A stretch of 64,000 nt of DNA from Paramacrobiotus metropolitanus. Lineage: Eukaryota; Tardigrada; Eutardigrada; Parachela; Macrobiotidae. This document shows positions 2,725 through 54,570 of this stretch, piece by piece (position 1 is the first letter of the stretch; each line of letters begins with the position of its first letter). The stretch covers positions 310,001 to 374,000 of the forward strand of contig NW_026570328.1 of the NCBI RefSeq assembly GCF_019649055.1. Direction: 5' to 3'. Under the pieces are notes generated by a model that did not search any database, was not told where the DNA came from, and was given only the letters and a program-made list of their open reading frames with translations. The position numbers and the translations under genes are program-made.

Positions 2725-5700
2725 ATGCCCGTGTTACTTGAGGTAGACGGTGCACGGAATGGTCAGACAAATAATGCCCAGGACGCGTCAGACGTATCTT
2801 CGGGCTCCACTTCCCAGACGGGATCGGAATTGCTCCCGGATGATCCGGGAGAACTGCTCGAAGACCTCCTAACACCAATACACGGCAATGGACGCTATCA
2901 GCGTTTAATCGCTTGGATAATCATATTTCCATCTTTCTTTGGATTATCCTTCATACAATCGCTTGTGGTAAGCAGTCAGCTATTTATTTCCTATGACATC
3001 AGTTTTAAAACTAATATAATTAAGCCTTCGCACTTTTTCCATGAGTGCTTATCTTTTAACGGAATATAAAGGTCACGGTCGAAAACTTTACAAACATTTT
3101 GCAGTACTTTGTGATCCCGATTCCCAATGATTATCGGTGCCGACTACCAAATCAAAATGGTTTTAAATCCGGTTATGCCTTGCTTCCACCTTCCGTTGAC
3201 AATGCTACGTCAAATTCCCAGTGTGAAATGTACGATGTGGACTACGGTCAGTATACGGTGAACAGCACGCTAAACGAAACAGCGCTGTCAGAATATCTGC
3301 AACATTTCAAAGGAAATCTTTCCACCGTACGTTGTCAACATGGATGGATCTACGATACGTCCATCTACGAAAGCACTATTGTCACCGAATGGGACTTGGT
3401 ATGCGGACGAACATTTTTGCCGACACTAGCCTACATTCTGACATCTATCGGCGGCGGACTGGGCATTGCGGCTGGCGGCTACTTTGCCGATCATTATGGG
3501 AGAAAAAACACGTATTTCCTGGCTCTGCTGATCATTGTATCGTTTGGTACTGCCACGGCCTTCTCGTCGTCATACGAGGTCTATGTTGTATTAACAACAT
3601 TGTTGGCTACCGGAAGCAATTCATTCTACCAAGTGCCGTACACCATCGGAGTGGAAATTCTGGCGCCGAAACACCGATCGGGATTTTCCGTCGGGGTCAC
3701 CGTTGCATTTGCAGGTGCAGTACTGTATTGTTACATCGGGTTTGAACTTTTATATTGTACACAAATACACAATCGTACCAATACTCTCCCATTTTCAAAA
3801 TGTGCTCACATCATAAGTTTGCAACAAAAATCTTCCTCAAAAGTAGTCGTTTGTGTTCGCTCTGTATAATCATACAAGAGTCATCTTCGGCTTCGCCTCA
3901 GATGCTCTTGTGGTCTAAAGTCAATTCCTTTGAAAAGTAATTCTTTATCATTTATCCTTTAAGTCTGATTTGAGTGAACGTTTTTACAGTAATTACCAAA
4001 TTTGCACCCCTGGGGTGCAAAAGTTCAAACGTTCCGGAGGAGGGGAGCATATTTGGGGGAGGGACGCAATTTCGGGGGGTGGTACTATTTTTCAAACAGT
4101 ATTTTTCGGAGGGGGCTGTCATTTTTCAAAAAACTTCGCATCAAACAATCCGTCATTTTTCAAACAATCCTGTTCTGTTGAAAAAGAACACAGTAGATAC
4201 CGGTATTTGCAATTTCACAACCTTGCGAGCAGCATTCTGGAGCATAGCACCACATTATTTTTGTGCCGTTTACTGTTTATATATATTAAGTACAAGATCT
4301 ATACTACGCGCGGCGCCCCATAGTTTTCAGATCTCCATAACCAAACCGTTTTTTTGAAAAACTGACAACGCCAGTAGATCGGCCTTGGTCTAGAACTGGC
4401 CGACATGATTTTCTTTTTTAAATTCGTTCGACCAGAATCGTGCCGGCACGATGCCGAAAGCGATCTAACCCGCTTTCAAGGTGACCTTGGGACTTAGAAA
4501 AAATTTGCTTGGATACAATACAATACTTAACATAAACTAATTTGTAGCTCGGTCACCCATCTAACTAACGGGATCTAAGCACTGGACAGTAATGGTAGCT
4601 CAGTCACTCGTTCCCCTTAAGGGTTGTGTGCACTGGACAGTAGTTGTAGCTCGGTCACTAGTTCACCTAACGGGCTCTGTGCACTGGACAGTAGCGGTAG
4701 CTCGGTCACTAGTTCACCTAACGGGATCTAAGCATTGGACAGTAATTCGAGCTACCACTACAGTCCAGTGCGCACAGCCCTTTAGTGGAACGAGTGACTG
4801 AGCTACAATTACTGTCCAATGCTTAGATCCCGTTAGGTAGATGGGTGACCGAGATACCACTACTGTCCAGTGCAAACAACCCTTAAGGAGACCGAGTGAC
4901 TGAACTACCATTACTGTCCAGTGCTTAGATCCCGTTAGGTAGATGGGTGACCGAGATACCAATAATGTCCAGTGCACAGAGCCCGTTAGGTGAACTAGTG
5001 ACCGAGCTACCACTACAGTCCAGTGCACACAGCCCATTAAGTGAACGCGTGACCGAGCTACCACTAATGTCCAGTGCACGGAGCCCATTAGATAGATGGG
5101 TGACCGAGCTACCAATACTGTCCACTGTCCAGTTCATAGAGCCCGTTAGGTGAACGTATAACCAAACTGCAATTACTGAAAAAATAGTACAGAGCTCGCT
5201 AAGTTGTTAGTTTGTGATCAAACTGGCACCAGTGTCCAAGTCTGAGCTTCCTTTTAGTTTGTAATGTAGTACTCTCGTGGTTGATTAGATTAACGTATGT
5301 ATATTTAAATATACAAAAAATCTAAACCTTGAAATTACCTTAAATACCAAAAAAGTTGGGAATGTCTGGTTCGGTGTAAAACGACATATTAATACTCTTA
5401 CTCATGCGCTTACATGCAAAATTTGTATAAAATATACACATAAATTTATGTGTTTTAAAATGTACTGAGTATAATGTATGTAACTCGCGAAAGCTAAAAA
5501 GTTCCGGTGCATGTGCCTAATGGTAAGTACGTAATGACACGTGCATCAATTTGGTTCCATGTACCGACAAACTTAAGTCTGTTTATGAAGGCTTCCGGGC
5601 GAAAAAATTTTGAATAATTTGGCCTTTTTGGTACTACATGAAATTAATGAAATGAACTGTATTCAGTGAACATTTAGAGTTCTTTATTTAGAGTCCTTTT

Positions 5701-7689: not shown

Positions 7690-8165
7690 CAGTTGCAGTG
7701 CGATAGTGCGACATCGGTAGGTTAGCGGGGGATCGCGGTGTCACTACTGTCCGGTGCAGAGACCCCGGTAGGTGAGCGGGTGACCGAGATGTCACTAACG
7801 TTCAGTGTACAAAGCCCGTGAGAACGAGTGACTGAGCTACCACTACCGTTCGTGCACAGAGTCCGGTAGGTAAGCGGGTGACCGAGCTGTCATTATTGTA
7901 CAGTGTATATGAGTGACCGAATTACCACTGCTGTCCGGCGCAGAAAGCCCGTTAGGTGATACGAGTGACCGAGCTACCATTACTGTTGAGTGCCCAGATC
8001 CGTTAGGTGAGTTGCCGACCGAGCTACCACTACTGTCCTTCGAAAGGAACCGGTTAGGTAAGCAAGTATTCGAGGTACCACTAATGATCCGGATCTACAC
8101 TATCGGGCACCCACCACTTTCCAGTGAAAAGAACCAGTGAAGTGACGAGTCACCGAACTAGTGAT
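7690..8165 (-). repeat. Second, degenerate array of the 51-bp minisatellite family
   Basis: About nine diverged units with the same core words (GTGACCGAGCTACCACTACTGTCC, CCGTTAGGTGA) as the second half of the array at 4.5-5.2 kb, all in that orientation. It lies downstream of the SLC22 stop codon. Unit lengths vary and substitutions are common, so it looks older than the first array. Confidence 0.8.
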
Positions 8166-16919: not shown

Positions 16920-19900
16920 TCAAGTACTACGGTGCTCTTTGTAAGGCGGTGGCACTTCCATTTGCAGCATGGGATCAGATTCCACGTCGGAACCGTCAGG
17001 TACAGGACTGAGTCCATCCTGGTCACCGGTCCGGGTGGATTCCGTACGCCGCTTGCTACAATATATACAGTCACAATGTCATTATTATTTACTGACACGG
17101 TACGATGTGACAGGAATATTATATATCGGTACTTATTGCATGACTACTGTTATGTACTACGGTTATGAAAATTACAGCTGGTCAAATGTTTACTGGAACT
17201 GCATAATTTACATGCTTTCCAAAACCAAAAATCAGTCTATAGGTCGATTTGCAGTATTCGACTTGTCTTTTCGTCCGTACGCGCATTTTCGACTACAGCT
17301 GCAAGTCTAGACATGCATACAGTATGAATTTTGCAGGGATCCTACTGCGTTAAATAATATGTTTTTACATATAGAATATACCGGCTTTTTGGCAGCTCCA
17401 GTGTGTTGGTGTTCGACGTCTCCCGGCTCCTGTATTCCTCCATTTCATTAACCTGACTCAATAAATTTGCCGAAGAGATGTTTTTCCATAAGCCGGTTTT
17501 ATTGACTGCACTGGTAAAATCCAGAGCTTCGGAGCTTTGTGATACAGAACTGTGGTTTTTCTTTACAGGAATAGACAGGACGTTGCCGTTTGGTAAACAT
17601 ATCTTCATGAAGTTTTCATCGACAGTTGTTGGTGTGGTTATTGTTTTCTAAAATAAATGTTTTCAGCATGGATATGCTAAACCAGAAAAATCGTCATTTC
17701 AGTTGGACATATCGGCAACCGAAATACCTCATCGTCATCCTTTTGAACGTCTTCTTTCTTTCGTTTGACATTTTCCGGCATTATGTCATCCAAGAAACTG
17801 AGTTCATATTGCGTGAAAACATAATCCATGAGTTTCCTTACTCCAACCAGTGCACCAACCTAATCGTAAAACAATAAAAAAGTTTGCCTATATTATTACA
17901 AAACAAAACAAGTGCTTTCTATAAACGTTACGAAGAAAGTAAGCTGATGTACAGAGTAGGTACTTGTTGCTATGCATACCATCAAGGGGAACAGCATAGC
18001 GGTTTCCAGAAAACTCTTTAGCAGCCACAGAAAAACCAAGCACAGTAGCTGAATAAACGTGTAAAGGTGGACGCGCTTGATCTTCACGTGCCGGAGGTAT
18101 GCGTAATCGGGCTGGTATTTAAGGGGCATAAAGGCCAACTTCAGTCGGTCGGTAAACTACAGGTCGAAAAAGAAGAAAACGATTATTATTGTTCTTTTAC
18201 ATTGCTTCAGTAACACTTACTTGGAGGCCGTTTAAGGCATTCAGTCCCATAAACAAGAAAACACCGAACAGAACCGGCATAGGAATGATGCGAAGGAAAC
18301 TTGTCATGAATATCGATGCACCAATAACAATCTGTCACGATTAGAACCGTTAACCTTTATTTTTAACAACTTGTTTTGCATAATAAAGTGTAATTACGGA
18401 AATGGCGATGTTCGTTATCCGTTGTTCTCTAACGCCTAGGAAGGTCGGTCTTTCCCCCGGCGCAGCCACTTCCGATTCCATTCTCAAACTGGCAACATGG
18501 GTGAGCGAGAGCACCGTATCGGCTACCTGCACAAGATTTTAATTCTCAAAAGAGCAACATTATGCAAGCGAAGGAATATATATTATAGCGCCTTAACTGA
18601 CTCACCATCCAAGGCATTCCCAAAAAGGACGAAATTAATGTCAACACAGAGACAACGAATAAGTCCAGATGATAGCCGATTCCTTTACGGAAGCGATTTT
18701 CCTTGCGATTAATAATCACAGTGGTTATCTGTTGGTCCATGAATATCAGAATAGTCACAAGGATCCCGGGAAGCACGGCGGCAATGGCAGTCCACCATTG
18801 ATTTCTGTCGCCGAAAAAAGGCACAATCCATGAACCACCTCGTGGCGTATATGTCGGCTAGAAATGTAAAGATACTGTTAACTTTCCACATTAACAACTA
18901 CACATCATCCTTTATAAACTGCAATTTGCCGAAAACCAAAATTATCACCCACTCAGTAATCGTAGATGAACAATAAAATATCAGTAAGTTATACACTTGT
19001 AATGGTTTGGCTATTTTTAAGATTTAGGAGAATATTTCATGTGAGCGCAGTGCGTCTATGCTAGACTGGTGTGAAACCGTTTTTTATACGGGTATTAGGT
19101 ACATTAGGTTACCTTATGGTTAGTACAAAATGAATCAAGTAATTGTTGCAGTTAACGCACTCAGCATTTTAGTTGCATGACATACAGTTCCGGTAACATT
19201 TGATTAAGTCTTCTAACGAAATATCGAAAAAAAGTGTTGATAATACTGCATGTGCATTTTACACTTCACCTCAAGCTGATCGGGCACGCCCAGTTTGGGA
19301 GTAGGGATACCCAAGGCGTAGTCCACTCCAACAAAAACGCCAATCGAAATAATCACCGCAAAGTCACTGACGAACTGGCGTAATTTGTTGGTGAAAAACG
19401 GAGAAACCTTGAAGTCTTTTAAAGTTCTGGCCATAAAATACGTTCCAAAAAATAATACCACAGACAATAAAAAGGCATCCGGAACATAGTGCGTGCAACC
19501 ATCACCAAAGAACGCAGTGCCGATTCCGGCTGTTGCGTTCTTTTCCTTGGTACAGTCCTCCTTGGAAAAATTTGCGTCTATTGGAATGTGGACGGAATAA
19601 TTGTTCACCGGTGACTTTATCACACAATCACAGATATCACTCGTATTGGATATGATACCGGGATTAGTACGTAAAGGCTCTTCTTCGGCGATATGGAATA
19701 ATTTTTTAAAGGCCTCGTAAACAAATATTGCGGAGACTAGTGCGGCAAAGCTTTCTTCTGTAAACCGGGTGATGTAGCTCACCAGCGAACTGAGATCAAA
19801 TACTACCATCAGCAGCAGTAGAATAGTTGCCCAAATGCCTATCCATAACCTCATTGGTAGATAGTCTATGTCCATTGATCTGTAATAAAATGTGATACTT

Positions 19901-22870
19901 CGAAACAAAATAGCGGCAAAACGTCTGTAACTGAGTACTGACCATTTATGAAGTACTTCAATTTAGAATGTTCAGTTTCAACATAATTTTCGAATTTTCA
20001 AGCTATAAAGTAACGCTAGGTTAAATTAAATAATTATCCACCTAGAAAAATGGAAAACTAAACAACCTATGCATTTAATTAATTCGTAGAATTTGATTCC
20101 AAGTACCTGTAACTAACCAAATAATTTAACCATGCAAAAATCAATCTTGAAAAATAGTAAAGCGCGGATTTACTGTAGCTTGCTTTTGGGTTATAATGTA
20201 CTAAACTTTTAACGATAAAACTTCAAGGTAAATTAAAAGATGACTTACTCGCACATGTTGAAACTGATAAGCTCGAATACAAGAATCGGTCCAGTGCTGC
20301 CCAGAATGACCATCGGCTGACCCGCGGTCAAGCCCCATGCGATACCGGAAAAGGCACGCGCCAGGATCGTTTCAACAGCGCCCTGCAATTCATTTTCTGC
20401 ATTAGCAAATGTTTTAAATCCAGAAAACGTGGGAATCAACTTACCATTCTTCGTTTCAGAAGATCGCTCATAAGACCGCCAAATGTTATAAGTGGCGTCA
20501 TCGATGCGAAATACAGAAAGATAAAAGAGGCAAGGCACTGAATATGTAAGGCATCTTTGAAATCACTGACATAGAAGGGTATTTTCCTTTTAATGTCATC
20601 CACGAATCCTCCAAACAATCTAAACGCACGCAAAACTTGCTGAAGTTTGTTGAATAATTTTATCAATCATAAATTATAATTAGTGTTTGATTAAGCTAGG
20701 CATAGCCATTATCTGTACACTCCATTTGGTAAATTTTCGACTGGACACTCCAAATGGTAAAAATAATTTTATAAGAAAAATGAAGAGATATTAAGTTTAC
20801 CTCCCTGTCCGACGAATTCCGGCGCCATGATCGGATTTACCACTGTGTTCACTGCTCTCCAGTGCCTGCAGCACATCGGTACTGCCCGTTCGTCTAAGTT
20901 TATCAATCATGCGCGACTCCTGCGACTGGACACAAGCCGGTGGTTCAATACGAATTTTGGGATCCCACTCCCCGGGCGGTAGCACCGTGGAGGCGCCCAA
21001 AAAATCGTCCGTAGCTGATAAAATATCTTCCCGGTCTTTTGCTTTGTAAATGACTTGTTGAAAAAGCTAAAGAAGATCAAATTAAACATAAATGAAGAGA
21101 TGCCGATCATGCAAAACAGTGGAAACACTTAGCTACCTCGTCCGAAAAGAGGGTTCCCATCGTTCGGCCGATTTGATGATAGCGGTCACCCACCGCTTTG
21201 GGGCCCAGTAGCACGAACAAGTAGCGCGTGGGAACCGGCACTTCCGTTAGACTGCCCAGGAAGGTGGGACGGCTTAGCCGAACGAACGCACAAAGCGGAA
21301 AGGGCGGCAGGAAATCCAGTTCGGCTACTAATATATTGGCGGCTTCGGTTCCCGTTGGTAACTTTTTCAAAAAGTGTATATTGGCCTAAAAAAACGAGGT
21401 TTTTTGTTCATCTAATAAAGCCACATAGGTACATCTTATTATGGCTGCACGAAACTATACATTACCGGCAAGTTTTCTATATGTACAGACTGTATGTATA
21501 TGCCTGCCATATTTTGAAATAAATATTATGTCTCTTTAATCTCCTAATAGTTAACTCGTACGCATCGTATAAAACATAGTTATTTTCACAACGTCGTATG
21601 TACGCACACGGTGCACTGTCTATGAAACCGCGCGTTACAGTGGATGTACAGTAATTAAACTTCGTTCTCCATTAAGGATTCAATTACACATTCAGCTTCC
21701 GGTAGACACATACTCGGCTTTCTTCCCGCGTCAACCCTTCCAGATTCGCATTACTCGGCAGTCCACCGCTATCCTTTCCGCTGTCGTTACGTTCCAACAG
21801 ATTACTGCTGCTGTTACGCAGCAGCTGGGAAAACGATCGCGTCTTGGTACTGTCCTGATCTTTACTGCCGATTTTGCGCATGCGCCGTTGGTTGAGATGC
21901 TTCGGCCGTTGCAGCAGTGTCCCGAGCACCGCGTCCCGATAATTATCCGGCAGACAGCCGCTATTGACCCACTGCTGTATCACTTCCGTCCACAGTTCGT
22001 GCAGGTTGGACGCGTCCAAATCCGAGTAGTATCAAGCCGGTGGTGAAGTGATTGCGCAGTTCCAGTAAGGAGTGCAACGACAGACTGGCAACAAAGGGCT
22101 TCGACCATCGATTGCCGCCCTCTTCCACATCCTCTTCAAACTTCACCCACCTTCAGTCAATCAGTAACGGATAAACACTGCATGGTCATTGTTATTGTTA
22201 CCCGTTGTTTGTTAAGAATTTCACATGTCACCTGTCTCGCTTGTCTGGAGATTCGATAAAAAATATAAAATTGCTGTCACATTTTCAAAACGAGCATTCA
22301 GCAAGTATTAACCTGCTAAAAGTTAAGTAATAACGCTTTTAACTAATTCGATCTAGTACAGTACAATAATTAATTCTGTAGAAACCGCTGCGATATAATC
22401 CGGTAATTAAAAACGTCATGTTGCATGATTTTATGTGCGTCGCTTCCTGGCTTGTAATCATTATAAACACCGTAAATAAAGGGCATTTAAAAAAGCAACC
22501 AGCGTGGTACCAAAGCATTTATGATCATAAAAACTTTAAAACCGTTAGCTTGCCAACACCGAGCGGAACATCGGAGAGCGGAAATCCAACAAAGTGAATA
22601 CTGAATGATCAGTATCGAGCAAAGTAATTATATCAACTGCCCACGTCCATGTATATCTCTATGTTACCTGGCTGTTTCGCGCCACTCCGGCTCGCCACCG
22701 GCTCCGCGCTTCTTATTGAATTTCAGTTCGGTCATTTCGCAGAACAAGGTGTGTTTGTCCTTATGGAGGTGATCCTCGGCATCCTGCCCGGTGTCATCAC
22801 CGAGCTTGAACTTGATTCCGTGCGTGGTAATGGCTAATAAGCGATGTTCGTGCGTAACATCATTCATCAT
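16920..22870 (-). CDS. SLC4 Na+-coupled bicarbonate transporter, one internal frameshift
   Basis: Plasma-membrane HCO3- transporter controlling intracellular pH. Exons: 22870 (or 22833)-22668, 22150-21714, 21385-21137, 21066-20801, 20619-20445, 20382-20249, 19879-19270, 18857-18606, 18526-18398, 18331-18221, 18156-17980, 17859-17728, 17647-17382, 17055-16920; about 1,090 residues. Cytoplasmic domain: [53 protein letters not shown]. Membrane domain: [33 protein letters not shown], a large four-cysteine extracellular loop with N-glycosylation sites, [32 protein letters not shown]. The tail is basic then acidic and ends with PPPY. The sequence resembles the Na+-driven NBC/NDCBE branch more than AE exchangers. 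Exon 22150-21714 has one extra base near 22022-22023. Additional N-terminal residues may sit in an upstream exon. Confidence 0.92.
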
Positions 22871-31000: not shown

Positions 31001-32711
31001 TGAAATGTGAATCAGCTGATATGAATAACGAAGCCGTACTTAGACATGCTATACGGAACAGGAATAGCATTCAATTCGAAGCCCCGTTGGCTCAGTTGGT
31101 AGAGCGCAGGTCTCATAATCCTGAGGTCGACAGTTCGATCCTGTCACGGGGCATTTTTTTCTCTTTTTCACTTTTTTTAACAGTCTACAGAAACTCTTGT
31201 ATAGGTTTAAGTTGCATTCAATCATTATTTATTCAGCTTTTAGGAAACTTTTTATTCTCAGTTGTAATTTGTGCAGTTTCAGAAATGCATATCGGTATAA
31301 GGAGATACCGCGCATGTACTAACCTCACAAAATCAGTATCTTAATACTTACTTGTACTCTGTTTACTTAAGTTTCTGTCTGACTGGCGTGAATCACAATT
31401 AATTTTAGCTGGCGCACATATTGCAGCTTATTACGGTAATTAAATATCGGTAGCTGGCTTACGGGATAGGTAATTGTTTTTAGGATTACAGAGTAGTTAC
31501 TTATATGGTTACACAGTTTGCATTTTGTTTGCAGATATATAGTTCTTGCATTCTTTGTGGGATTTTATTCTCTGCCTTGGATCGGGGCATCCGACCGCGT
31601 TTGCGCGATACATCCTTGCCACAGATAGTTGCCAACTGCACTATAATTCTGCTTCTTAGTTCATCTTTGCCGTTGTTTGTCCGCGTCCTAGGTAAGCAGC
31701 CACTACTGCAACGGTCGGGCTATCTGTTTTTCTTTTTGACTGAAATATGTCGCATTAACTCGATATGCTTGACAATCAAGAGAAATTTGAACTGCTTAAT
31801 CCTAGCGGGAATCTTTGGCAGGTATTACGAATTTCGATCTGCTGGGCAGCTTTGTCCATGTCAGCTGGCTTCGAAATTTGCGTGTTATTGTTGGGTAAGC
31901 ATCATTGCACATGAATCACAATGAAAGCCGACGCGCTTTACAATCTGCCATAAGATTATTTATGGACGGCGGTCGAATCAACTTTCGCTTTTTATTACGA
32001 AACCTTTACTACCAGTAGCGTTGCAGCACGCTTGTCGAAGTGGCTCTAGCAAATTAACAGCGAAAAATTCGTATAAATGATAAAGTACAGTTCCATACGA
32101 TTTGGGTATTATGTTGCCTACGTAATTAGAATTCTGAAGACAGTGCATCTTTTAATGTTTTCTAATTTATTTCAAAAATATTTATTTCCGGCCAGATGAA
32201 GTGGTATAATAGCCTTAACTTTGAATACGCAGAAATTATTTTGAAAATTTAATTGCACTGCTTTGAAAGTTTTTGGTTAGAGTTTCCATAGTATGCATCT
32301 ATGTTAAACTTCTAAAAATGAATTCACAAACAGTTAAGCGTTTGTCCATTAATCTATGAAAACTGATTTTTTATATCTATCTGCTATATATAAATTTTAA
32401 CCTGTTAATAAACCGTCATTTAATTCGTTGTTGTTAATTCGTTGTTGTTTTGATTCACGATCAGGATTCCCATGTATTGCAGGTATAATATTTTATATCT
32501 TGTGGCATCCGTACTGGTATTGACCGCCCATGCCACCCGAGCTGTTTGGCAAGCGATCTGTGAACGACTGAAAATTGGTACCAACGGTATAAAAAAAGTT
32601 GCTGCCCGGCGATCGGGCAATTCGGCCTTTAAGGAGTGTCTAATCGAGCCAGTTACGTCCAAGCTATTGCAGCTGTCAACAAAAAATGGATACCTGAAGA
32701 AGCACAGCTAG
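28021..32711 (+). CDS. LMBR1/LMBR1L-type multipass membrane protein, one internal frameshift
   Basis: LMBR1-family proteins are nine-pass membrane proteins; the vertebrate LMBR1L member was described as a lipocalin receptor and Wnt regulator. Exons: 28021-28104, 28371-28510, 28862-29016, 29074-29174, 29675-29801, 29892-29969, 30168-30232, 30302-30475, 30549-30700, 31535-31691, 31822-31894, 32483-32711. All phases fit if one base is restored in exon 10, giving about 511 residues against roughly 490 in the human protein. Family landmarks: GAILLLPCSVLANEI, FYFQWLNTSVIH, LWNLITTLSN, YFLSESEGFDGSRK, STPCGYARMFTVVGKLV, VGFYS, RPRLRDTSLPQIVANC, NFDLLGSF. The loop after exon 7 is shorter than in vertebrates. 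A tRNA gene sits in intron 9. AATAAA at 33127-33132 is a plausible poly(A) signal. Confidence 0.92.
31081..31153 (+). tRNA. tRNA-Met (CAU), elongator type
   Basis: A 73-base cloverleaf. The seven-base acceptor stem GCCCCGT pairs with ACGGGGC, with discriminator A. The D arm is GCTC...GAGC. The anticodon loop CTCATAA carries CAT. The T arm contains GTTCGATCC (B box), and TGGCTCAGTTGG is the A box. A run of seven T follows directly as a Pol III terminator. No intron. The anticodon stem resembles elongator rather than initiator tRNA-Met. It lies on the sense strand inside intron 9 (30701-31534) of the LMBR1-like gene. Confidence 0.96.
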
Positions 32712-48734: not shown

Positions 48735-50081
48735 AAAAACAATGGATTGAATGGCGCATGCGATGTTAGTAAGATGTTGACTTCTGTTTGCTTGATGCTT
48801 AACGGGATATATATTCGGTGTATTACGCAGGTGAATTGGTTCTGATTTACGAACCACCATCCAGCAAGACTGTGAGTTTTCTCATGTGACATGCTGTGGC
48901 ACTGGACACGGCCATTCCCAGTTTATATTAATTGTTTGTCGTTTTTGGCGGGCATTTTTGTGGACTACAGAATTTTTCTTAGTTTTTACGCTTTATTTGT
49001 CATTTGTTGCAGGCTGCACCCACTTGCAGTGGCATGCGGTTCAGGCCTTTCGGTTTTTGTATAGGATGAACCTGCTCACAGTGCAGCTCTCGGAAACGAA
49101 TATACTACTGAATTTTTATGTTCGATGTACTGCGAGACGGGGGGCTGGTTATTTCGAGTTGATATCTGTGAATCTACAACAAAAACGACGGTTCCGTTGC
49201 TTTATACAATGCTTCCATGTCGGTTCTTACACATCGGTTTTGTTCATCTCGTTTAATTTATTTTACGAGTACGTAATAATTACCAGCACTGCGCTATGCG
49301 CTGATGTGAAACTAACACTATCTGGTATTATACTTTTCAGAAGAAGATTTACAAAGGATATTTGATCATTATAATTAGCTTTAATCTGCGCAAGCGTATT
49401 GTCACGTGTACTGGCTGTTGCCGAAAAAAGATACTTGTATATTTATTTACAGCTAATCAGTAATGACTAATACAGTAACTGTAGAATTGAATTTCACTAA
49501 ATGTGAACTTTTCAAACACAGAAAATATTGTTTGATGTAAATTTTATTTTCTTAGTCGATATCCTATCACGAGGCGTAAAACAAAAATCAAAATCTGAAA
49601 ATTCAATGCGCAGTGCTAGTCTGGCGAACTTCTGGGCCAGAACTAGAAGTACTCAAGCAGCGCGCTTTAGTTTATAATGTCATACACTGCCACTCCATGG
49701 CGGCCTACCATGGCTCGATAAGAGATGGTTAATCCATAAGGGAAATGGCCCGGTACATAGCGTCAAGAATGGGATACACGCACAAAAACTTTCGCTTTCG
49801 CACACTACGAATCACTTTTTTGTAAAACTTCATGTCATTTTAAAGCTAAATGATTTGTATACATTGTTCCGAAACCCGTTTCCCTTAAGCTATGGATATG
49901 GACAGGACAGTATGGTGTCTTTTTAGTCTTGCCCAAAGCGTCTGTTAAAGTTATAATATTATAATTATTGTTTTTCTCCTTTACCGTAAAGGCTTTACCC
50001 TGGGATAACGTTAAACGTGGTGTTATGAAAAGCAAAATTCTCGTGGTCCTTCTGAGCTTTTGGTAACTTACCGCAACCACA
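48735..50081. other. Intergenic region between exportin-7 and the ABCF2/RTF1 composite
   Basis: Mostly AT-rich sequence without genes. An ORF at 48886-49365 has no recognisable domain. A diverged repeat copy lies at about 49728-49890. The composite gene's promoter should be close to 50 kb. Confidence 0.45.
49728..49890 (+). repeat. Diverged copy of the 53-kb palindrome arm
   Basis: Aligns with 53229-53375: both run from AAGGGAA-TGG-CCGGTACA through CTTTCGC-CACT and GATTTGTATACA to a GAAACCCGTTT/GAAAACCGTTT word. The many mismatches suggest an older copy of the same dispersed element. Confidence 0.6.
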
Positions 50082-53000
50082 ATGTCTAGCGTTTCCAAGA
50101 AGCGCGAGGCCGAGAACACGGCCGCGACTGCTACTGCGCCTAAGAAGATCAAGATGATGGAATCGCAGGGATCAGGAATTATTAATGGCCATGCTCCCAC
50201 TGGCAGTGAAATCGCGACAGTCGGCGATAGCAAACCAGGTAAGAGAATTCCATCTCAGTTCCCATTAAACTAATAAAGAGCGCAATCGGCCAATGGCTTT
50301 ATTTAGTGACGAAAGTGGAAGTTGAACTTAAGGAACAAGATATGGCCAGCCTGTCTCGCACGTGTACCGGGGTCCTGGCCAGCCCGTCGCAGTCGCGCGA
50401 TCTGAAAATCCACAATTTCTCCGTGAATTGCCACGGGTTTGAGTTGTTGGGCGACACGCATCTGGAGTTGAACGCCGGCAATCGGTATGGTCTGATCGGA
50501 CTGAGCGGCTGCGGGAAGAGTACGCTGCTGGCGGTTATCGCTCACCGCGAGATACCCATCCCCGCGGGACTGGATATCTTCCATCTGCACCGCGAGATGG
50601 CCCCCGTGGATAAGACTGCGCTACAGTGTGTGATGGAGATCAATGAGGAAAGGATGCGACTGGAGAAAGAGGCAGAGGAGCTCGCGCACGCTTATCCTGA
50701 AGGTACGCTCATTGTCGTATGAAAATAAGATCAGTGTTTCGTGCACAGCTATTTTTAAGTTGTTTTTTTTTTGCTAATCAGCTAATACGTATTTACGGTA
50801 TTAATGTATTTAATTCTTTTGTTGCGTTCCGGTAATTGTCCTATTTGAATTTCTGTAGCCTCGCACGATAAATTGATGGATTTTTATGAGCGCCTGGACG
50901 AAATTGGAGAAAAAGGTGCAGAAACTCGTGCAGCGGATATCTTGCATGGTTTAGGCTTCACCAAACAGATGCAGCAGACCAAAGTCAAGGAATTTTCTGT
51001 CGGCTGGCGTACGCGCCTTACCCTGGCCCGCGCCCTGTATCTTAAACCTGCTATTCTACTTTTAGATGAACCGGTATGGTTGGTTAATTGTTCGTTTTTC
51101 TCGGTAATACCATTTACATTTATTTTAGTAGTATTTTTTCATAAGCATGGGAAGAGTTATGTAAGTACTTATTATAATAATTACTATTCCGTATTCAAAT
51201 TTTCTGATAATACAATAATTTCAAGATAAAGTATAAAATTTTCTCAGCAGTCACTAGCTTACCTTTGCCAATAAATATGCAGACAATAAGTCGCGATCTC
51301 ACATACTTTCGCGTAATGAACTGCTAAGGGCTGATTACAATGCCAATAACGTTCCTTTGTGTGGCTTGCACAGAGTTTTTAGCCAAAAGATTTTGTTTGC
51401 AGTATGAGACCAGTACTTGTTGTTTGGAATTTGGAAATTTATGTGCACAAGTCAGATGTATATGTCACAATGTGAAATCGTTAATTTTTTGAAATCTTTT
51501 TACAATCAGGAAATCTGAATGCGCAGGTGATTCGTTGTTCGAAATGTATGTCAGACTGATCCGTTGTTGAGAAAAGTCGAAGTACATACTTACTGATACC
51601 GTCGTCGCGGTTTGCGTTGGTAGTTTTGCAGCCAGTTTGGGTATCTCAGTTTTCGATCTTCTGAACGTTTCTTTTAATTGTCATCCGATTTTTTAGCCCA
51701 TCGTATTTGAAATATTTCACGTTTTTTATGAACTTATATGAATATGAACGGGCAGACGAAGTCCTGTAGCTTTTTGTGTCTATGTTCTCAGTTGATTTCC
51801 TTGTGCTGGTTTTCAGACAAACCATCTGGATCTGAATGCCTGCGCATGGTTAGAAGAGGAGCTGAAATCGTATGCATGAGTCTGGCTGTCACCTTGTCGT
51901 GGCGACTATTTAATAATTTTGCAGGTATAAGAAAATTCTTGTTGTGATTTCTCATTCGCAAAACTTCCTAAACAGCGTATGTACCCACACTATTAATCTG
52001 GATCAAAAGCAGCTGAGATACTACGGCGGTAATTATGAATTTTTCGCGCGAACACGGGCAGACGAAGTGAGAAGCCTACTCAAACCGGTTAGCCAAACTT
52101 ATTTGGTATTGTGTTAATTTTATAACCTTATGTTGTTTGTAGCGCAAATGGGAAGATGAACAAATCGATCATATGAAGGTTTGGTTATTACCACTGAGAT
52201 AAAATGGTTTTTGAAATCTGTATAATGCGATGTGGATGTTAAAAGTTCGCTGCATTGACCAGACTTGCTTGCATTGCACTCAATGCACTGTTCTTTAATT
52301 AAGCTGTTTAACGCATTGATGAGAAATTTCGTCGAAATGCAACTTTTTAACAGCTTGCAACTATAGAAGTATGTTGATTGACAGGCTTTGGAAAAGATGA
52401 GTCTGGACAAAGCTACCCTGGTCAGCTGGTGCTATCAAAACTTTTTTCCAAAACTTGTGCTCGGCTGTTTCGTAAAAGTTGATGTGCAGAAGTATGGCGT
52501 GGATTTCGAAAGTGTTCGGCCCACTTATCAGGTAATAGTGGATTTATAGTGTCTGTTTTCCACTTGACAGAAAAAGTTCTGTTCTTGACAGAAAAGTTTT
52601 TCTGTTTTCCCAAAAAAACATTTCTTCTATTTTGATTGTGTACACTTTTTTTCTGTATAAAGCATTTGATTTTTCAAAACATTGGGTCAAACAGATGATG
52701 CATTAAAAAAATAATAACTGTTCTGCACCTTGGGTGTGTTCATACTTCCTGTGTGTACGCCCATAGAAAAACTTCTTCCCTTGTCCTCATACTTTTCCAC
52801 ATGTTTCCACTGTTTTGCCTGCTTCGGAGAAAATAGAAAAATATAAATTCAGCGTAATCAGAATAAGTACAGTAAATGTTTTTGATCAAATTGTGTTACT
52901 ATTTTTGCCAACTGCGCAAGAACTGGGTTAAGCAGTCAGAAAGTTGTTAGTTATCCATATTTGCGTAATCGTACATTCGTACGTGAAGAAAGACGGGAAT

Positions 53001-54570
53001 CGAAATCGTAGCAATTGTAACCTAGTAATTCACTTCCTGATTACAACTATAGATTGGCCGAATTGTGGGAATAAGCGAACTAAAATCACCGTATTGGATA
53101 ACTACTAGCTTGTCACCTGGAGGGCCACCATCAGATACTAGGACAAATTGGAATCTTGTGGTTAGGTGAGCGAAGGAACAAAATGCGAATTTACGTTTCA
53201 CTAAGGAATCGACTTTTAAGTGAATTTAAGGGAAGTGGGCCGGTACAAGGTACAGAATTCGTGTACCTGCACGAAAACTTACACTTTCGCGCACTCCCAA
53301 ACACATTTTTGTTTCGGTTTATGACTTTCTGTAGGCCCGAAGATTTGTATACACTGGTGTGAAAACCGTTTGTGCGCGCAACATCCGGTTCGGGAGTTAT
53401 GGCTTTTAGAAAATTCCAAAAAGTTTAAATGCATTCAGTTGTACCAAAAGTCTCATTATGGACCGATCTTCCTCAAATTTTGTACTTAAATGCGCATGTC
53501 CATGAAGATCGTTTTTACACCGATTTAAACTTTTTGGAATTTTCTAACAGCCATAACTCCGGAACCGGATGTTGCGCGCACAAACGGTTTTCACGCCAGT
53601 GTATACAAATCTTCGGGCTGCAGAAAGTCATAAACCGAAACAAAAATGTGTTTGGGAGTGCGCGAAAGTATAAGTTTTCGTGCATGTACACGAATTTGGT
53701 ACCATGTACCGGCCCACTTCCCTTAAGTGTTACGCCCATTTTGCAGCATTTGCATGAATTTTTTGGTTTAACTTTAGATTTGCTGATGGAAAAAGTGACT
53801 TTTTATTGGATGACGTGTCAAGACAAAAGGGCACCGGGCAAGAAGTTGCCGCTTATCTCGATTCTTTGGAAAGAGACGGTTTTGTTATCACTGACCATCG
53901 AAAAATGGAAAGCAAGATGAATGAGCTGGACGAGATCGTCGGCCGCCCGACAACTGACGAAGATTTTCAGGAATTCTTAGCGAATCAACGGAAATGCCTT
54001 TCATATCCCTGGACATTGTCCATCCGTGAATTGCACGATTTGTTGCCTATGCGGAAGCTAAAAGCTGTTCAATCTAAGGACTTCAAGCGCGCGGTGCGTA
54101 TACAAGAGCAGTTAGATGATTTACTGGCATACCGGCCCGAGCTGGATGAAACCAATGCGGCTAGCTGGAATCCACCGGTGATTGTTGACAAAAAAACCGT
54201 AAGTAGCAGGAGTGATAGTCATAAAGTTTTGACTCATTGCTGTTGTAAAAATCTGATTATGGTTTTACGTAACCCACTTTAACAGAGGATGGACGAAGTG
54301 TATTACGTAGTAAAGTGATTTACTGCGTGATTTTATGTTTCACTGATGAGAACTTACTTTTAACATGCAGCGGTATAGTTTTCAATATTGCGGCATTTTG
54401 AAATTAACAGTTATTATGTGACGGTTACTAGTTTTCCAGTCGGTATTGTTGTCAGAGTCTCAGACGTGACATTCAGACTGTTTTTCGCTTCTTAGCGTCA
54501 AGAGCGTATTCGGAAGCAAATTGGACGTCGCCGTTCCATGTCCGATGCCAAGGATTATCCATTTTGTTAG
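50082..54570 (+). CDS. In-frame composite: ABCF2-like first ATPase cassette joined to RTF1 Plus3 half
   Basis: Exons 50082-50238, 50307-50702, 50859-51073, 51817-51869, 51925-52066, 52143-52178 encode 333 residues like the N-terminal half of ABCF2, a ribosome-associated ABC ATPase. They show RTCTGVL, Walker [10 protein letters not shown], signature [15 protein letters not shown] (Val for the usual first Gly), Walker B ILLLDEP then TNHLDL, H-loop [10 protein letters not shown], ending EQIDHMK. Exons 52385-52531, 53053-53165, 53778-54198, 54496-54570 encode 251 residues like RTF1 of the Paf1 transcription-elongation complex: [30 protein letters not shown] then [10 protein letters not shown], then the helical region after Plus3. 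All ten exons keep one frame (584 codons plus stop). The second ABC cassette and the RTF1 N- and C-terminal parts are absent. It could be one fusion gene or two truncated genes side by side; ATG at 52396 could start the RTF1 part alone. Confidence 0.8.
53226..53726. repeat. Inverted repeat (about 204-bp arms, 94-bp spacer)
   Basis: Left arm 53226-53429 and right arm 53524-53726 are near-perfect reverse complements, from TTAAGGGAAGTGGGCCGGTAC at the outside to AATTCCAAAAAGTTTAAA at the inside. The whole lies in the intron between the second and third RTF1-like exons, so the pre-mRNA could form a long hairpin. ORFs on both strands across the arms are shadows of the repeat. Confidence 0.9.

Follow-up and report, generated by a model that had tools for sequence, protein, structure and literature searches.

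A tardigrade ABCF2–RTF1 fusion gene is probably one of five chimeras that share an RTF1-type tail

Is a gene that joins the front half of ABCF2 to the rear half of RTF1 a real coding unit, and does it stand alone in its genome? The question is raised by a 64,000-nucleotide (nt) stretch of the tardigrade Paramacrobiotus metropolitanus (contig NW_026570328.1, positions 310,001–374,000 of the forward strand; hereafter the window, its contig being C108 of our numbering), in which an earlier note, made from the letters of the sequence, described an ABCF2 half fused in frame to the Plus3 half of RTF1. RTF1 is a conserved elongation factor whose Plus3 domain is a reader of phosphorylated Spt5. The window has a G+C content of 40.4%, against the 43.46% reported for the genome, and was analyzed together with the whole assembly (169.8 Mb, 533 contigs). 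At the level of the sequence the fusion gene is real. It is probably a genuine chimeric coding gene and belongs to a group of five, each with a duplicated RTF1-type tail behind the 5′ portion of some other duplicated gene.

The ten exons of the window gene, re-derived from the sequence, form one open frame of 591 codons plus stop, rather than the 584 codons counted in the earlier note, and all nine introns run from GT to AG (Table 1). The intron that separates the exon ending in EQIDHMK from the RTF1-like exons was recovered exactly where it had been placed, with phase 0 on both sides; without splicing, the frame of exon 6 meets a stop shortly past the junction. Pfam recognizes both halves of the predicted protein, with ABC_tran at residues 102–258 (1.9e-21) and Plus-3 at residues 342–457 (1.8e-14, above cut-off), as well as the first half only of ABC_tran_Xtn (residues 298–341, profile positions 2–45 of 85; 7.6e-6, barely above cut-off). 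Among proteins of solved structure, yeast ARB1 is the best match to the first half (1.5e-73), and residues 342–568 match an RTF1 homologue (1.1e-12). In line with the earlier claim that neither a second ATPase cassette nor the RTF1 N-terminus is present, a search of the window at E 0.01 recovered neither the second-half exons of ABCF2 nor the N-terminal half of RTF1; the sole match there to the C-terminal half of ABCF2 (29% identity) is the paralogous first cassette of the fusion gene itself.

Compared with ABCF2 and ARB1, the window protein shares the first cassette and the first half of the linker, but it has no second cassette, reads SVGW instead of SGGW at the ABC signature and carries an added RTF1-type tail; it thus departs from ABC-F proteins both in the pairing of two cassettes in one chain and in the intact signature of the first. 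With RTF1, a member of the Paf1 complex (Paf1C), it shares the Plus3 domain, the C-terminal region and the intron positions within Plus3 (phases 0 and 2), whereas an unrelated head takes the place of the charged N-terminal half, which presumably holds the histone-modification domain.

Both parents are present elsewhere in the assembly, as established by the search for complete genes that the earlier note had proposed. ABCF2 lies on C157 (640 codons, 14 exons), where its C-terminal half gives six exon matches at 82–99% identity; five further matches elsewhere, at 29–48%, are other ABC proteins. RTF1 lies on C26 (606 codons as modelled), has a charged N-terminus and is the only gene that its own N-terminal half matches. 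The window fusion is therefore an extra gene and not a replacement. It also has a counterpart, a second ABCF2–Plus3 fusion located on C26 near 1,047 kb, with identical order and junction, a 64-nt junction intron and a 594-codon open frame that starts at an ATG in exon 2. At the amino-acid level the two fusions are 69.1% identical in their heads and 63.6% in their tails. The ABC signature of the second reads SKGW, that of the genome's own ABCF2 being SGGW, and further catalytic residues are lost in it, with DDP at Walker B and TKYLDL at the D-loop. Its extended last exon holds a partial second copy of exon 9, in frame (L013 2194–1916, minus strand).

These two genes belong to a larger set. An exon-by-exon search, which weak matches may escape, made with the Pfam family and with every tail except that of the C26 ABCF2 fusion, identified six Plus3 genes in the assembly and none beyond them: RTF1 and five chimeras, with heads derived from ABCF2 (twice), UFC1, GKAP/DLGAP and A20/AN1. 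Two of these genes, the window fusion and A20–Plus3, escaped the search with Pfam alone. The UFC1 chimera (L018; C108, near 138 kb) contains a complete UFC1 (3.8e-83, all 155 profile positions) and a Plus-3 domain (9.4e-12) joined within a single open exon of 804 nt; in the GKAP chimera (L019; C26, near 766 kb), a partial GKAP profile (1.1e-11, positions 172–270 of 344) meets Plus-3 (1.7e-14) inside the second exon. Both joins precede a linker rich in serine and acidic residues that, by eye, resembles the RTF1 linker before Plus3. The A20 chimera (L016; C26, near 177 kb) combines zf-A20 (4.8e-5), a zf-AN1 match below cut-off (0.0078) and Plus-3 (4e-7).

The heads have free relatives in the same genome. 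UFC1 matches one further place in the assembly, a free copy that lies on C108 at a distance of 31 kb; for GKAP there is a free copy on C26 as well as a further partial match on C24; and A20 has four other loci above cut-off, the closest of the three compared being on C26, with a matching AN1 exon downstream (51%). Nine of the ten genes in question (six Plus3 genes and four head relatives) reside on C26 and C108, which make up 1.78 of the 169.8 Mb, ABCF2 on C157 being the exception. The unfamiliar architecture pointed out in the earlier note is thus confirmed as an in-frame fusion, although not as a lone oddity. Four kinds of head would amount to at least four head acquisitions, with both ABCF2 chimeras counted as one event, and the set suggests that the RTF1-type tail has repeatedly gained new fronts.

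A set of this kind might instead result from two adjacent genes merged on paper, or from an assembly misjoin. According to one study (PMC12964723), many of the novel fusions in helminth genome annotations are likely to be artefacts. The same junction, however, occurs at two loci on different contigs, and such divergence between loci that share one junction makes a misjoin, or two separate genes, very unlikely as judged from the sequences. In addition, the junction intron of the C26 copy is only 64 nt long, the UFC1–Plus3 and GKAP–Plus3 joins need no splice, and the RTF1 N-terminal half was found neither in the window nor at the other four chimera loci. Both artefact readings, to which we would give hardly any weight, were set aside in view of the C26 copy and the single-exon UFC1 and GKAP fusions.

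The origin of the ABCF2 join is apparent from the parent gene, whose intron 6 lies exactly at the fusion point, between HMK and EYIARFGH, and is of phase 0; the junction thus falls in a phase-matched intron already present in ABCF2. The head exon boundaries of the window fusion are those of the genome's own ABCF2, and blastn similarity to the parent, as computed from coordinates, stops 26 nt (window) or 32 nt (C26) into intron 6, with some more matching bases in the alignment past that point. As read from these sequences, the ABCF2 join arose by recombination within intron 6, and because the exon ends on both sides are of phase 0, splicing stays in frame. Because parent introns 1, 4 and 5 lie inside the blocks of blastn similarity, the ABCF2 head was copied from DNA and not from mRNA. 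Parent introns are likewise common to the ABCF2, GKAP and A20 heads and their relatives, and the intronless UFC1 head shares with the free copy an upstream flank as well as a portion of the neighbouring frame, so that the head duplications were DNA-level events. The shared block upstream of UFC1 (L018 915–1506 in reverse-complement coordinates; L021 479–1030 for the free copy) is 77% identical, and Pfam gave no name to the neighbouring frame of which it contains a part. Upstream, the fused UFC1 copy has about 1.5 kb of extra sequence relative to the free one.

While the five tails are only 27–37% identical to the genome's own RTF1, the heads are far closer to their free relatives, with amino-acid identities of 98.8% for UFC1 (166 codons, 2 of the 166 residues differing), 94.0% for GKAP (134 codons), 80.6% for A20 exon 1 (108 codons) and 81.5% and 81.1% for the window and C26 ABCF2 heads (259 codons). 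Selection was estimated pairwise as the ratio of nonsynonymous to synonymous change (omega; NG86, 100 bootstraps, ranges in parentheses). Against the free relatives, omega is 0.025 (0–0.068) for UFC1, at a synonymous divergence (dS) of 0.20; 0.114 (0.020–0.191) for GKAP, at dS 0.25; and 0.184 (0.125–0.293) and 0.157 (0.098–0.236) for the window and C26 ABCF2 heads, at dS 0.51 and 0.63. Between the two ABCF2 chimeras it is 0.286 (0.186–0.404) for the heads and 0.241 (0.141–0.347) for the tails, the latter at dS 0.99. YN00 gives values of different size (UFC1 0.048, GKAP 0.150, A20 0.587, ABCF2 0.281 and 0.203, tails 0.290). If the fused UFC1 branch were neutral, about 39 replacements would be expected, against 2 seen in all. 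Purifying selection acts on the tails of both ABCF2 chimeras and on three of the four head types, A20 being the exception.

Several points count against a set of five working coding genes. The evidence comes from DNA sequence; pairwise omega combines change on the fused and the parent branch, a limitation that matters little only for the nearly unchanged UFC1; and tail selection was computed for the two ABCF2 chimeras only, the UFC1, GKAP and A20 tails being too diverged. A20 exon 1 has an omega of 0.58 at dS 0.16, with a bootstrap range of 0.31–1.29 that includes 1. Moreover, the A20 join requires a 35-nt intron, whereas the other 45 of the 46 modelled introns measure at least 55 nt; since a longer in-frame intron, sought by eye, was not found either, this is the least certain join of the five. 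We take human R366 and F441 to be residues of the phospho-Spt5 pocket, R366 presumably corresponding to R227. At the R366 column the window tail has K, and each of the remaining five Plus3 genes has R; the F441 column holds F in the genome's own RTF1 and D, D, E, N and N in the five tails (D in that of the window), because of which Spt5 docking may be changed, possibly lost, in the chimeras, with Paf1C or nucleic-acid contacts as alternatives. Finally, the first exon of the C26 ABCF2 fusion is disrupted. Together with DDP at Walker B of the same copy and the altered ABC signature of both, this last point would fit a fusion decaying into a pseudogene, which we nevertheless regard as improbable: the ten exons of the window gene are all open and bounded by GT–AG splice sites, and the four ABCF2 comparisons, heads and tails, give omega values of 0.16–0.29, so that neither a broken frame nor neutral evolution is seen.

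Within the reading as genuine chimeras, heads and tails may differ in age. In trees of seven tail sequences, the UFC1 and GKAP tails group with a support of 99 (97 on Plus3 alone) yet carry different heads, which requires at least one head change or gain after duplication of the tail. The placement of the genome's own RTF1 is unsupported (60 on the full tail, 53 on Plus3 alone), as is the pairing of the two ABCF2 tails against A20 (52 on the full tail; Plus3 alone groups them differently, at 48). The grounds for pairing the ABCF2 tails are their 63% identity, versus 33–34% to the A20 tail, and the junction that they have in common. Provided that the 35-nt intron is real, the ABCF2 and A20 tails share a phase-0 intron immediately ahead of Plus3, which is missing from RTF1, UFC1–Plus3 and GKAP–Plus3. 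Because tail dS (0.99) exceeds head dS (0.51–0.63), the tails of the ABCF2 chimeras appear to be older than their heads, or else gene conversion by the parents has acted on the heads. Old fusions with heads kept parent-like by gene conversion, rather than recent head swaps, would also agree with the low dS of the other heads (0.16–0.25), but less easily with the two grouped tails behind unlike heads; we consider this course of events possible, if short of probable.

As for function, the chimeras can be pictured as a duplicated RTF1-type tail, consisting of Plus3 and the C-terminal region without the charged N-terminus, placed behind the 5′ part of another duplicated gene; the tail would dock the protein on the elongation machinery through Spt5 and/or Paf1C partners, and the head would supply or replace the N-terminal function. 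Because its partner cassette is absent and its signature altered, the ABCF2 cassette of the window protein probably serves to bind nucleotide or as a scaffold, and not as a normal ABCF ATPase. The SVGW signature, in which the earlier note saw a fit with a changed role, is real, but does not by itself show such a role and fits a lost paired-cassette ATPase function. Given its strong conservation, the UFC1 head is probably used for its own activity, its motif GGKICLTDHF, which we take to be the catalytic-cysteine region, being intact. The A20 head, by comparison, may be a passenger.

Could all the heads be passengers, each providing a new start and possibly a new promoter but retaining little function, while the tail is the part that counts? 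The features of the window ABCF2 head (SVGW, no second cassette) and the omega of the A20 head would fit, we know of no function common to the heads, and upstream of the ATG similarity to the parent continues for about 189 nt in UFC1 and 224 nt in A20. The corresponding stretches, however, amount to just 15 nt and a detached block of 25 nt for the window ABCF2 and 23 nt for GKAP, so short that a shared promoter is not demonstrated there, and the UFC1 head is almost frozen. We give this explanation less than even odds.

In other lineages, proteins that combine Plus3 with further domains are already known, and so are RTF1-like paralogues. Drosophila tPlus3a and tPlus3b are RTF1-like proteins that have Plus3 and a C-terminal interaction region, are devoid of the histone-modification domain and act in the male germline (PMC6405060). 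The window gene resembles them in combining Plus3 and the C-terminal region without the RTF1 N-terminus, and differs from them by its borrowed head, none being mentioned for the Drosophila pair in the available part of the source; testis expression is known for the latter, and a germline-restricted role of the chimeras would, by analogy, be a guess. Plant ZMP (PMC9699677) and TZP also join Plus3 to other domains, although with partners that differ from the heads found here (zinc finger, SWIB and GYF). Among the literature matches listed for such fusions or Plus3 paralogues, no title or opening of an abstract names any of these fusions, and no earlier description of the set of five was found; the main text of a 2026 elongation-factor survey (PMC13289920), in its available part, contains neither "fusion" nor "tardigrad".

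That the RTF1 Plus3 tail serves here as a plug-in docking module for four unrelated kinds of head, bringing, for example, UFMylation to transcribing RNA polymerase II, is a proposal that we deem unlikely as it stands. The heads joined to a Plus3 tail include an apparently intact UFM1-conjugating enzyme, and through the UFC1 fusion co-transcriptional UFMylation would become open to a direct test. With five chimeras and four head kinds, one genome offers a natural series on which to ask whether Plus3 is a portable recruitment module, and which bears on how repeated head exchange between genes works. It is from this recurrence and from the intact UFC1 head that the interest of the locus comes, and an odd single fusion is worth comparing against the rest of its genome.

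Table 1. Exons and junction intron of the ABCF2–Plus3 fusion gene (window coordinates)
Feature	Position	Strand	Content
Exon 1	50082..50238	+	ABCF2-derived N-terminal tail; blastn similarity to parent ABCF2 from 50067
Exon 2	50307..50702	+	ABCF2 first cassette, Walker A GLSGCGKST
Exon 3	50859..51073	+	Altered ABC signature FSVGW; Walker B LLLDEP
Exon 4	51817..51869	+	D-loop region TNHLDL
Exon 5	51925..52087	+	H-loop region SHSQ
Exon 6	52143..52178	+	Final ABCF2-derived exon; C-terminal end EQIDHMK, phase 0
Fusion intron	52179..52384	+	206 nt, GT...AG, phase 0; blastn similarity to ABCF2 intron 6 up to 52204
Exon 7	52385..52531	+	Plus3 domain begins
Exon 8	53053..53165	+	Plus3 domain
Exon 9	53778..54198	+	Plus3 end and RTF1-like C-terminal region
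Exon 10	54496..54570	+	Basic C-terminus, stop

Intron 8 of the fusion gene harbours a nearly palindromic foldback element (53226–53726) with arms that are 94–97% complementary, and a diverged relative of it, 71–83% complementary to one arm, lies directly upstream of the gene (49730–49881). Elsewhere in the window, two arrays of a 51-bp tandem repeat (4544–5124 and 7715–7892) are found between and after open frames matching major facilitator superfamily (MFS)/sugar transporters, an open frame on the minus strand (19216–19962) matches a bicarbonate transporter domain (HCO3_cotransp, 2e-57), and a tRNA-Met gene occupies positions 31081–31153.

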